39,048 bases of DNA, from positions 1 through 39,048 of the IMG/VR virus record IMGVR_UViG_3300026097_000046; one strand, 5' to 3'. Position 1 is the first letter of the stretch. Each line of letters starts with the position of its first letter. Of this stretch, positions 987-8,439 are shown one piece after another. The notes beneath the pieces were generated by a model. That model made no database searches. It was not told the DNA's origin and saw only the letters and a program-made list of their open reading frames with translations. A program made the translations under genes and the position numbers. This DNA comes from a virus.

Positions 987-1003
987 TAGTGTAACAAAGA
1001 GAT

Positions 1004-1128
1004 ACCGAGGCGACGAACTGAGTAGTATAGGCTTTACCAGAGTTTATACAAAAGACGGCGTCAGGCATGTGAGATAAAGTGCTGGTAACACTGGACTTGC
1101 TGGTGGGTTCGACTTCCCACGCCCCGGT
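1004..1128 (+). ncRNA. tRNA-Thr-like fold with enlarged D-arm region
   Basis: ACCGAGGC (1004-1011) pairs with GCCCCGGT (1121-1128) at seven of eight positions. A GTGGG/CCCAC arm with loop TTCGACTT (1103-1120) abuts the 3' strand as a T-arm does. AGTG-CTGGTAA-CACT (1078-1092) has a proper anticodon-loop form (U33, GGT, A37). The D-arm space is 66 bases rather than about 19 and holds a GTATA/TATAC hairpin (1025-1049). No CCA follows. It may be a tRNA-like domain inside the larger RNA. Confidence 0.4.
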
Positions 1129-1267
1129 CAAAATATTAGAATAGGCTGAGTTTAGTGTTTCTCGAGATAAACTATTCCAGTCAATCGTCCGCCCTCTGTT
1201 CCCACCGTGGTCGGTCTAAAGTGACGTTAAGCCAATAAAAAGTTAACGGTGGGCCGTATTATTTTTG

Positions 1268-1356
1268 AAGACACACTATTAACAAAACAGCCGTGGCTGG
1301 CTCCCGAGATAATAGCGCTCACTTGTTCGTTCGTGAAAAAAGCTATAGTGTGTCTT
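1268..1356 (+). ncRNA. Branched stem element with 12-bp closing helix
   Basis: AAGACACACTAT (1268-1279) pairs perfectly with ATAGTGTGTCTT (1345-1356). Inside are a CAGCC/GGCTG hairpin and a TAGC/GCTA plus TCAC/GTGA hairpin, giving a three-way junction. Its closing stem matches that of the element at 368-440 with one compensatory change. It ends in a short T run, so a terminator role is possible but the helix is long and open for one. Confidence 0.45.
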
Positions 1357-1565
1357 TTGAATAATAAAATTCACTATGTAAGAGGTCGACATCTTATGTA
1401 GAGAGAACACTGCATACGTCACAGGGCTGCTCGGCGTATCGGGAAACACGGTCTGAGTCATAGCTCAGACGCAGGGGTAAAAGTCCCAATCGTGAGATGG
1501 CCCAGGAATTAAAAAGAACAGGTGACGGCAATCACCTTCTCTGAGAGACTACTCCTCTGCGTTTT

Positions 1566-1660
1566 GCCGAATGCAGGTTGCGGTAGACTGTTTGGTCTAA
1601 GCGGAAGGACGCTGGGTGGTATGCCCAGAGATGCGGGTTCGAGTCCTTGCAGCAGTTTTG
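1566..1660 (+). ncRNA. Class II tRNA-like core with CTA in the anticodon position
   Basis: The order of elements matches a Leu/Ser-type tRNA: a GGTAGAC D-loop motif (1582-1588), an anticodon-like arm TTTG-GTCTAAG-CGGA (1591-1605) with U33, CTA and A37, a long variable arm CTGGG/CCCAG (1612-1628), and a T-arm with loop TTCGAGT (1638-1644). The acceptor cannot be assigned cleanly and no CCA is encoded. The whole is enclosed by the 10-bp stem 1538-1547 with 1661-1670. It may be part of the large RNA rather than a working amber suppressor. Confidence 0.35.
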
Positions 1661-1679
1661 CTCTCAGAGAGAAATTAAT

Positions 1680-3378: not shown

Positions 3379-4682
3379 GAACACAACCAGACTACATCAT
3401 CCGTCAGTTAGAGCAGCACAACAGCCGACTGGATAAAGAAGCGATTCTCAAAGATGCTTTTGATGAAGGCTTGCCGGAGTTCTTTGAAGGTCTTAAGATG
3501 GCACTTGATCCACTTGTAACATTTGGTGTTAAGCAGGTTCCTGTGCGCAAAGATCAGGAAGAGGGACAAGGACTACCTTGGGAAACATTTGTAGAACTAG
3601 CAATGCGTCTAGCAGGGCGTGATCTAACAGGACACGCTGCTCGCGACTCAATCGAACTTGCTATGAGCGTAGCAACTGACGAACAATGGAATGACTGGTA
3701 TCGCCGTATCCTCATCAAAGACCTACGCTGTGGTGTTAGTGAAAAGACCGTTAATAAAGTAGCACCAGGTACGGTGCCTATATTCACTTGCGCACTTGCC
3801 CACGACAGCCTCAAACACGAAAAGAAAATGCAAGGCAAGAAACAGATTGAAATCAAACTTGATGGTGTGCGAGTGATTACTATCATCCGTGGCAATAAAG
3901 TAGAAATGTTCAGCCGCAACGGAAAACAGTTTTATAACTTTGGACACATTATTGAAGAGATAGAAGCTGTAGTTAAGGAGTATCCTGTGCCATATCCGCT
4001 AGTGCTAGACGGCGAAGTAATGAGTGCTAACTTCCAAGACCTCATGAAGCAGGTACATCGCAAAGACGGGAAGCAAAGCACTGACGCTGTGCTACACTTG
4101 TTTGATACTATTCCGCTAGGTTGCTTTATGAAGGGCGAGTGGGACAAGCCACAGAGCTTCCGAAGTGAAATCACCAAGCATTGGGTAGAAGATCACAAAG
4201 ACGTCTTAGAGCACGTACAAGCACTGGATTGGGAAACGGTTGATTTAGACACCCAAGAAGGACAAGAACGCTTTACAGCACTAAACAAAGCGGCTGTAGA
4301 AGGTGGTTACGAAGGTGTAATGATCAAAGACGTAGATGCGCCTTATGAATGTAAGCGAACACACGCCTGGCTTAAAGCAAAGCCATTTATTGAAGTAACA
4401 TTGGAGGTTGTAGATGTTGAACAAGGAACAGGACGAAATGAAGGAAGACTTGGAGCACTCGTATGCCGCGGTGAGGATGATGGACGGATGGTTGAAGTCA
4501 ATTGCGGTAGCGGGTTTAGCGATGCTGATCGTGATGATTTTTGGCTCAGCCGGGACACTCTTGTGGGGCAACTTGTAGAAGTAAGAGCAGACGCTATTAC
4601 ACAAAATCAAGACGGCACCTACAGCCTACGATTTCCACGCTTTAAAACATTCCGCGGATTTGAGGTTGGAGAAAAACTTTGA
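3375..4682 (+). CDS. ATP-dependent DNA ligase
   Basis: The enzyme seals nicks in duplex DNA during phage replication and repair, using ATP through a lysine-AMP intermediate. Nucleotidyltransferase motifs are visible in order: motif I EIKLDGVRV with the AMP-accepting K161, motif III LDGEVMS, motif IIIa LHLFDTIPL, motif IV EGVMIKD and motif V WLKAKPF. An OB-fold-like C-terminal part follows. At 435 residues it lies between T7 ligase (359) and T4 gp30 (487). The chosen start is GTG at 3375, overlapping the upstream TGA, with AAAAGG upstream. No in-frame ATG lies nearby. The TGA stop overlaps the next TTG start. The first 140 residues probably form a DNA-binding domain. Confidence 0.95.
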   Translation: MRTQPDYIIRQLEQHNSRLDKEAILKDAFDEGLPEFFEGLKMALDPLVTFGVKQVPVRKDQEEGQGLPWETFVELAMRLAGRDLTGHAARDSIELAMSVATDEQWNDWYRRILIKDLRCGVSEKTVNKVAPGTVPIFTCALAHDSLKHEKKMQGKKQIEIKLDGVRVITIIRGNKVEMFSRNGKQFYNFGHIIEEIEAVVKEYPVPYPLVLDGEVMSANFQDLMKQVHRKDGKQSTDAVLHLFDTIPLGCFMKGEWDKPQSFRSEITKHWVEDHKDVLEHVQALDWETVDLDTQEGQERFTALNKAAVEGGYEGVMIKDVDAPYECKRTHAWLKAKPFIEVTLEVVDVEQGTGRNEGRLGALVCRGEDDGRMVEVNCGSGFSDADRDDFWLSRDTLVGQLVEVRADAITQNQDGTYSLRFPRFKTFRGFEVGEKL

Positions 4683-7231: not shown

Positions 7232-8089
7232 ATGTCAGAACCAATTGAAAATGCTATCGAGCAACTTAGTAGTGCTATATCAGATGTAGTAAGAACTGCT
7301 ATTACTGTAGACGACTTTGTATTAAAAACAAAAGCACCTGTAGAATTTCTTTCGCAAGGAGGCGACAAAGATGTATATGGTTTAGGCCTACAATGGAGAG
7401 CTACAGGTACTACAAAACAATTTATTTACAGAGCTAACCCTGATCGTTATTGGTCGTCAGAGTCGATTGACTTGAGAGACGGGCAGTCATTTATGATTGC
7501 TAATAATACGGTAATTTCACAAGATGGACTAGGCGCTGGCATACGTAACTCTAATTTGTCAACTGTAGGTGTACTAAAGGATCTACGTACATCTGGTAGT
7601 TTAAGTATTGATAACAATGTTTTTTATAACAGCGATAGTGAAAGACTAGGTGTAGGTACTGATTCTCCGAGCGGTACCGTTGGTATTGCAAGTTTAGATA
7701 ATGAGTTTGTAATCGACGTTGAACATACCGTAGCTAAAATTGGTACACATAGTCACAATCCTTTGGAGATACTAGCAGGCAATAATGCAGCTATCCAAAT
7801 AGATCCAAATGGTAGAATAAATATTCCTAATAGTACACTTACTGTACAAAAGTCAATCGGAGTAGGGATATCTAATCCACCTAGTGATGCTAGTATTACT
7901 ACTGCTGGTCCAATACGTTTCCAAGGAAATAAACACGAATATAATACTGGCACACCAGAACACGGTTCATATACCAAAGGTGATATTGTTTGGAATCAAG
8001 ATCCTAAACCAACTGGATACGTTGGGTGGATATGTGTTAGAGATGGCACACCGGGTGAGTGGAAACCGTTTGGTGCTATAGGCTCTTAA
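7232..8089 (+). CDS. Fibre-like virion protein, 285 aa
   Basis: The sequence is typical of phage fibre proteins: a short helical N-terminus, then beta-strand repeats rich in Gly, Ser, Asn and Thr. It includes segments common in fibres (SERLGVGTDSPSGTVGI, LEILAGNNAAIQIDPNG, VGISNPPSDASI) and a C-terminal tip-like part (GDIVWNQDPKP, then GYVGWICVRDG). It probably forms a trimeric fibre or collar component outside the tail. A late promoter (7202-7209) and a GGAG ribosome binding site stand upstream, consistent with late virion expression. It lies away from the main fibre block. The receptor or partner cannot be inferred. Confidence 0.8.
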   Translation: MSEPIENAIEQLSSAISDVVRTAITVDDFVLKTKAPVEFLSQGGDKDVYGLGLQWRATGTTKQFIYRANPDRYWSSESIDLRDGQSFMIANNTVISQDGLGAGIRNSNLSTVGVLKDLRTSGSLSIDNNVFYNSDSERLGVGTDSPSGTVGIASLDNEFVIDVEHTVAKIGTHSHNPLEILAGNNAAIQIDPNGRINIPNSTLTVQKSIGVGISNPPSDASITTAGPIRFQGNKHEYNTGTPEHGSYTKGDIVWNQDPKPTGYVGWICVRDGTPGEWKPFGAIGS

Positions 8090-8117
8090 CCTAGCACTTA
8101 AATTGCTGCTTCTGCAT

Positions 8118-8125
8118 TATAAATA
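8118..8125 (+). promoter_or_regulatory. T4-type late promoter TATAAATA
   Basis: A perfect TATAAATA ends only nine bases before the ATG at 8134, so the transcript would have almost no leader. Other late promoters in the window lie 18-26 bases upstream. Confidence 0.6.
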
Positions 8126-8133
8126 ATGTTGTA

Positions 8134-8439
8134 ATGAAAGAGTTTCACAAAAAAGCACTATCGCAAATAAGTATTTGGGCATGGGCAGCCACCGTGTTTC
8201 CTATCGTAGCTCTTGCTGGATTATTCTTCTTAGAGTTTATCGGTCTACGCTCATACTATCATATAACACTTACTATAGGAGCAACAATAATGTTTGCTAT
8301 CAGTGTGATTTGGTGGTGGTGGGCATTATATACTATTGCAGGAGTAACAAGTGTGCTTGGCAAAACTTCAGAAAAACTAGACGAAGTTGTTGACGAAGTT
8401 GTAGATATTAAAAAAGATATCAAAGAAATTACAAAGTAA
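8134..8439 (+). CDS. Small two-segment membrane protein
   Basis: This 101-residue protein has two hydrophobic segments (about 15-35 and 44-68), the second including the unusual run WWWWAL. A charged heptad-like C-terminal tail follows (KTSEKLDEVVDEVVDIKKDI), likely a coiled coil on one membrane side. Holins have this general layout, but the long helical tail is not typical and no lysis partner is next to it, so function is left open. The upstream late promoter suggests late expression. There is no clear ribosome binding site. Confidence 0.75.
   Translation: MKEFHKKALSQISIWAWAATVFPIVALAGLFFLEFIGLRSYYHITLTIGATIMFAISVIWWWWALYTIAGVTSVLGKTSEKLDEVVDEVVDIKKDIKEITK

Follow-up and report, generated by a model that had tools for sequence, protein, structure and literature searches.

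A candidate tRNA-mimic RNA and a putative tRNA-Arg with a rewired core lie side by side in a phage tRNA array

Two phage RNA architectures that are, in our best judgement of the open-licence literature, both undescribed likely adjoin in the tRNA array at the start of the window (the whole 39,048-nucleotide stretch analyzed, from IMG/VR record IMGVR_UViG_3300026097_000046). The first would be a family of non-coding RNAs whose core is a tRNA mimic that cannot be charged and is locked by kissing hairpins. The second would be a class of functional Arg and Ile tRNAs whose strands are connected in a new way: the D-helix runs around the anticodon arm, and a D-loop with the Arg identity base lies between the anticodon and T arms. 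The explanation that we find probable overall is that the window encodes a member of the tRNA-mimic family, made as a single transcript with a locked fold and most likely serving as a decoy, and that the tRNA-Arg is separate from it.

ARAGORN placed 11 tRNAs in positions 1-1918. We gathered relatives via the downstream phosphoesterase gene, which led to contigs sharing the same array, and the compared contigs are mostly fragments of uncultured phages. The first-pass annotation had described 993-1679 as a stretch with no credible gene, and we found only short, overlapping open frames there. It had also proposed a large structured RNA within the tRNA cluster, perhaps of a new class. This holds: judged by comparative covariation, structure is proven for 1518-1676 and, more weakly, for 1369-1516. 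The annotation treated the region as one unit, however, and based on phylogenetic distribution 990-1676 is a composite of four parts (990-1132, 1133-1374, 1369-1516, and 1518-1676), each distributed differently. Of the outcomes named earlier as telling against a structured RNA, a lack of covariation is contradicted, and a series of separate decayed tRNAs may fit 990-1132 only. The features of the region are as follows.

958-986, + strand: promoter-like site, TTGACA-17-TATACA (L115 and L124 have TATATT as the -10 in this position)
990-1132, + strand: stretch without relatives, with a T-arm-like hairpin (1103-1120) and a possible closing stem (1004-1011/1121-1128)
1133-1374, + strand: conserved RNA block B1, with an 8-bp stem (1201-1208/1246-1253) and a 12-bp stem (1268-1279/1345-1356)
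1369-1516, + strand: conserved RNA block B2, with a long hairpin around GGTCGACA, a multibranch closed by CTGC/GCAG, and an invariant GGGGTAAAAGTCCC hairpin
1451-1457/1464-1470: 7-bp stem
1518-1676, + strand: whole kissing-hairpin/tRNA-like unit, block B3 (160 bits with model R1, which was built partly from the window sequence)
1520-1537, + strand: hairpin 1, loop CGGCAA (1526-1531)
1538-1547 with 1661-1670, + strand: 10-bp closing stem, 8/10 pairs with double changes
1557-1576, + strand: hairpin 2, loop TTGCCG (1564-1569), enclosed by helix 1549-1553/1582-1586; 6/6 stem pairs with double changes
1587-1656, + strand: tRNA-like domain with acceptor 1587-1592/1651-1656 (6 bp), D arm 1595-1610, variable arm 1612-1628, and T arm 1633-1650

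The promoter ahead of the region had been called nearly perfect. Its -35 element (958-963) does match perfectly and its 17-base spacer is right, but the -10 element (TATACA, 981-986) matches at four of six positions, lacking the final T, and a consensus scan did not include 958-986 in its listing. L115 and L124 have TTGACA-16-TATATT in this position. This supports a real promoter here and, through its conservation, a transcript of the mimic RNA's own. All four perfect stems previously claimed (12, 10, 8, and 7 bp) are present in 993-1679. Minimum-energy folding of the single sequence gave z scores against shuffles of -1.93 for 993-1679 and -2.02 for 1518-1676; at about 2 standard deviations, this is weak evidence of structure and no proof by itself.

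Alignments of related loci carry the case for the 3' part. On their evidence, the RNA encoded by 1518-1676 belongs to a phage family in which two hairpins bear complementary loops and a closing stem surrounds an inner tRNA-like domain. This unit has the widest distribution of the blocks, with ∼30 members in phage contigs, collected by pattern scans of viral contigs and then filtered; many full-length R1 matches of 30-50 bits were ordinary tRNAs with chance flanks and were left out of this count. The covariation check on related phage regions that had been suggested earlier came out positive. In type 1 alignment A2 (eight sequences: the window, L115, L124, L186, L213, L209, L285, and L327), 96.1% of cells across 55 pairs were paired and 29/55 pairs showed double compensatory changes, versus 14.4 after shuffling and 3-10 after sliding, and none of 500 shuffles scored as high. 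Type 2 units (alignment A3) have an outer stem of 17-19 bp around the motif and tRNA-like domain, again with compensatory changes; a BLAST search of these units against 50,697 phage records returned marginal matches only (E 0.9). The joint alignment of 26 diverse members (A6) showed double changes at 24/29 pairs.

The two hairpin loops are mutually complementary (CGGCAA/UUGCCG). We infer that they pair with each other, based on the complementarity of invariant sequences and not on covariation. Their invariance is biased by selection, since the loop motifs formed part of the search pattern; the members retrieved without this bait were L115 and L124 (through the neighbor protein) and L107 (through the rewired-tRNA pattern described below), and all three carry the motif.

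The tRNA-like domain has a T loop of TTCGAGT (1638-1644), and both of its acceptor strands run on into the surrounding RNA. ARAGORN called a tRNA-Tyr at 1585-1659, which the first-pass annotation did not mention. This call is probably false because the domain lacks an encoded CCA, its "anticodon" loop is variable, its ends are fused, and its Rfam tRNA score of 23.1 bits falls below the gathering score of 29. Ordinary tRNAs in arrays of these kinds encode CCA in 96/101 and 244/252 cases. Among relatives, the third ("anticodon") arm varies in sequence and loop size, with no conserved anticodon loop, and ARAGORN labels the domain variously as Tyr, Leu, Val, Pro, Stop, or "???." Some relatives pass the Rfam threshold (48.8 bits for the L115 copy), and in L281, L288, and L302 the corresponding domain could be an ordinary tRNA. 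The domain in the window probably cannot carry an amino acid.

The blocks upstream, 1133-1516, are kept in fewer relatives than 1518-1676 and are not always joined to the unit. B1 is ∼84% identical in L115 and L124 and also occurs in L224 and L234, with a weak match to 1272-1356 in L143. B2 is found in the same four contigs, in L285 and L327, and partly in L209; parts of it precede the 1518-1676-type unit in the latter three. Its alignment (A5, five sequences) has 32 pairs, 6 of them with double changes. A search with nhmmer detected no relatives of 985-1132 among the collected loci, model R2 gave only 6.6 bits on 990-1132, at the T-arm, and the possible closing stem has one mismatch by eye; this stretch is perhaps a decayed or inserted tRNA-like element.

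We made several further observations in these arrays. Judged by eye, a short open frame with CxxC motifs lies between B2 and B3 in L115 (4366-4513) and L124 (1923-2117), preceded by AGGAGG; it is absent in the window. An element after tRNA-Lys at 363-440 of the window is closed by TGATGATACACT/AGTGTATCTTCTAA and recurs with differing insides in L115, L124, L186, L209, and L213. It resembles the 12-bp stem of B1, and in L186, L213, and L285 an element of this kind sits directly 5' of the kissing-hairpin unit. Stem-enclosed tRNA-like domains of a further kind (TTTTCACATGC/GCAGTTGAAAA) occur in L186 (2590-2690), L209 (1120-1240), and L213 (1850-1975). Promoter-like stretches followed by a boxA-like TTCTTTAAAAA lie ahead of tRNA groups and the unit in L279, L289, L292, and L313, an arrangement that recalls rRNA antitermination. 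L289, a tRNA-array contig that also bears the unit, has an Rfam tmRNA match at 4041-4439, where the beta and permuted models overlap.

Regarding function, we propose that transcription starting at the 958-986 promoter would yield a single non-coding RNA covering 1133-1676, and that pairing of the two hairpin loops would lock its fold. The tRNA-like domain would then imitate the tRNA elbow while being unable to be charged or to decode. Such an RNA may act as a decoy or docking bait for a tRNA-recognizing protein, for example, a host tRNA-cleaving defense nuclease or a tRNA-processing enzyme, and would be made together with the phage's own replacement tRNAs. This mechanism is speculative, and we hold it only tentatively as the most likely one. 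We favor it because the domain retains the elbow but not the features for charging and decoding, and because a comparable idea has been put forward for YrlA, a bacterial RNA whose tRNA-like domain has been proposed to inhibit a tRNA-cleaving nuclease competitively (PMC7790460). Phage tRNAs are known to counter tRNA-targeting defenses (PMC10264068, PMC11555353). Since the anticodon loop is not conserved, the RNA is unlikely to be aimed at a single specific anticodon nuclease.

Two other functions seem to us unlikely, though worth weighing. The loops could instead pair between molecules, forming a scaffold of rings or cages that works like GOLLD, ROOL, or the phi29 packaging RNA, to which this RNA would be unrelated. 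The two invariant complementary loops would suit this role, and the genomic setting is that of GOLLD and ROOL, which assemble into homo-oligomeric cages (GOLLD as a 14-mer nanocage whose linker can hold tRNAs) (PMC12286853). However, the loops are close in sequence, so that pairing within one molecule is simpler, and the unit is far smaller than GOLLD or ROOL. An equally improbable role is that of a stable tRNA-like module that guides cleavage of the array transcript by RNase P or RNase III, with no function in trans. The unit does sit inside the array, processing is typically signaled by features such as its closing stem and tRNA-like domain, and in type-2 arrays a new promoter-like stretch appears by eye directly 3' of it. 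Such punctuation would not need the conserved complementary loops or the second helix around hairpin 2, and ordinary tRNAs already provide RNase P sites.

The remaining readings fare much worse than these. That the region holds a real tRNA-Tyr gene and decayed tRNAs with no common RNA is very unlikely: the ARAGORN call and the remnant-like 990-1132 speak for it, but the sub-threshold score, missing CCA, and unconserved "anticodon" speak against it, as does the covariation of the embedding helices. We rejected the idea of a phage Y RNA of the YrlA type working with a Ro60 protein, whose chances we rate a shade lower; YrlA RNAs too contain a tRNA-like domain (PMC7790460), but no TROVE/Ro60 gene was found in 21 records with the unit (several long, some fragments, with host Ro60 outside the search), and the window has no YrlA match in Rfam. 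The kinship with GOLLD or ROOL proposed earlier is the least credible and was also rejected: size, place, the tRNA inside, and a conserved 3' with a variable 5' part are as in GOLLD (PMC12286853), but cmscan with Rfam models found neither RNA in the window at the gathering score, up to E = 10 over 840-1780, or in relatives up to E = 5-10 (with no ROOL positive control among the sequences searched), while it did find GOLLD in L004, L014, L048, and L313; L313 carries GOLLD (7777-8239) and the kissing-hairpin unit (4308 onwards) as separate genes, and >300 bases follow the enclosed tRNA in GOLLD matches versus ∼20 here. The GOLLD matches in L004, L048, and L313 each enclose a tRNA gene.

Directly upstream of the structured region, and missed by ARAGORN, lies the second RNA.

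869-948, + strand: putative rewired tRNA-Arg(ACG), from its R2 score, covariation, and identity bases
869-875/938-944: acceptor stem, 6/7 pairs (875-938 is a G-G mismatch)
879-881/905-907: rewired helix, enclosing anticodon arm 883-899 with anticodon 890-892
913-915: transposed D-loop-like GG-A
921-937: T arm, followed by discriminator G945 and encoded CCA 946-948

As far as its sequence can tell, this is a functional-looking tRNA-Arg with a rewired core and not part of the mimic RNA; the closeness of the two may be coincidence. It has an acceptor stem with one mismatch, a T arm, a 7-base anticodon loop, and CCA. A cloverleaf D arm, in which the D stem would close its own loop, is absent: the strand that follows position 10 is base-paired to one lying 3' of the anticodon arm, so that the D-helix spans that arm. 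R2, whose training set included the window copy, scored 869-948 at 87.7 bits versus at most 26.3 for the window's ordinary tRNAs. The rewired helix has perfect three-base complementarity in 89/96 copies (shuffled mean 39, maximum 51) and occurs in six versions (ACC/GGU, CCC/GGG, CUC/GAG, CCG/CGG, CAG/CUG, and CAC/GUG). In alignment A4 (45 sequences), 17/20 pairs showed double changes, with a covariation score of 0.760 versus 0.204 when shuffled, and RNAalifold recovered the same rewired fold unaided. Based on its position and conservation, the GG-A/U motif would be the D-loop shifted 3' of the anticodon arm. We know of no other tRNA with this strand order, and our search of the open-licence literature found no description of D-arm-less or rewired phage tRNAs or of tRNA-like phage RNAs with kissing loops.

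The rewired tRNAs form a phage class. BLAST of 867-938 led to unannotated stretches near tRNA genes in Streptomyces, Microbacterium, Mesorhizobium, and crAss-like phages; among the matches listed, those in cultured phages had no annotated feature. A pattern scan detected 106 viral stretches versus 3 in genomes of 84,980 cellular species, and those 3 are possibly phage contigs. In total we found 96 copies, nearly all Arg or Ile. The 78 distinct copies from the pattern scan, which left the anticodon free and fixed C32, U33, and A37, carry anticodons ACG (30), GAT (24), TAT (13), TCT (8), and TCG (3). ARAGORN called none of the 78, and phage annotations may therefore lack tRNAs of this kind.

Identity elements are also conserved. 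The GG 3' of the rewired helix is kept in 74/78 copies, followed by A in 37/37 scored Arg copies and by U in 36/37 scored Ile copies, and the discriminator is A in 37/37 Ile copies; among the divergent copies that the model search added, some deviate from the GG-A/U pattern or gave no score. In bacteria, arginine identity depends mainly on A20; for isoleucine, U20 and A73 are listed (PMC9976931). The A after GG in all scored Arg copies lends indirect support to charging of the rewired Arg tRNAs with arginine.

It is rare for a rewired tRNA and its canonical isoacceptor to be found in one array. Canonical Ile(GAT) was present in 2/36 arrays with rewired GAT versus 25/50 with another rewired anticodon (Fisher P = 5e-6), and canonical Arg(ACG) in 1/33 arrays with rewired ACG versus 17/53 (P = 7e-4), although these P values are optimistic in that related contigs are not independent. 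In L124, a canonical tRNA-Arg(ACG) takes the place of the rewired tRNA. In Persimmon and A3Wally, the end of an HNH gene lies immediately 5' of the rewired tRNA; we rejected a homing-element origin as a general explanation, since most of 74 copies examined have no such upstream frame. In L209 (211-1050), a canonical tRNA-Arg(acg) is seemingly broken off in the T loop and is followed by an open frame and then by a rewired tRNA-Arg(ACG).

To our knowledge, the tRNA fold is regarded as nearly invariant outside organelles, and a phage class that keeps charging signals and an anticodon on a reconnected core would demonstrate that a tRNA can work with a different topology. GOLLD and ROOL are, as far as we know, RNAs without a known function; the tRNA-mimic RNA would be similar in kind to them, compact, and open to testing. 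Its charge-incompetent tRNA domain suggests that there is a binding partner, for which one can search directly.

Like GOLLD (RF02032) and ROOL, the mimic RNA is a phage-encoded structured RNA in tRNA islands, and GOLLD too may enclose a tRNA and combines a conserved 3' with a variable 5' part. The unit differs from both in matching neither in sequence or structure, in being a short 3' unit with two complementary hairpins, and in having a CCA-less tRNA-like part near its 3' end. It resembles YrlA (RF02553) as a non-coding RNA with a tRNA-like domain that is no tRNA itself, but it occurs in phage records without a Ro60 gene and has no Rfam match in the window. As in tmRNA, a tRNA-like domain is linked to other RNA, but there is no Rfam tmRNA match at 993-1679 and the domain is contiguous, not built from two ends. 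With tRNA itself (RF00005), the unit shares the D arm, T arm, and elbow nucleotides but has no CCA, no fixed anticodon, and fused ends, whereas in 869-948 the anticodon arm would be nested inside the D helix, with the D-loop GG placed 3' of the anticodon arm.
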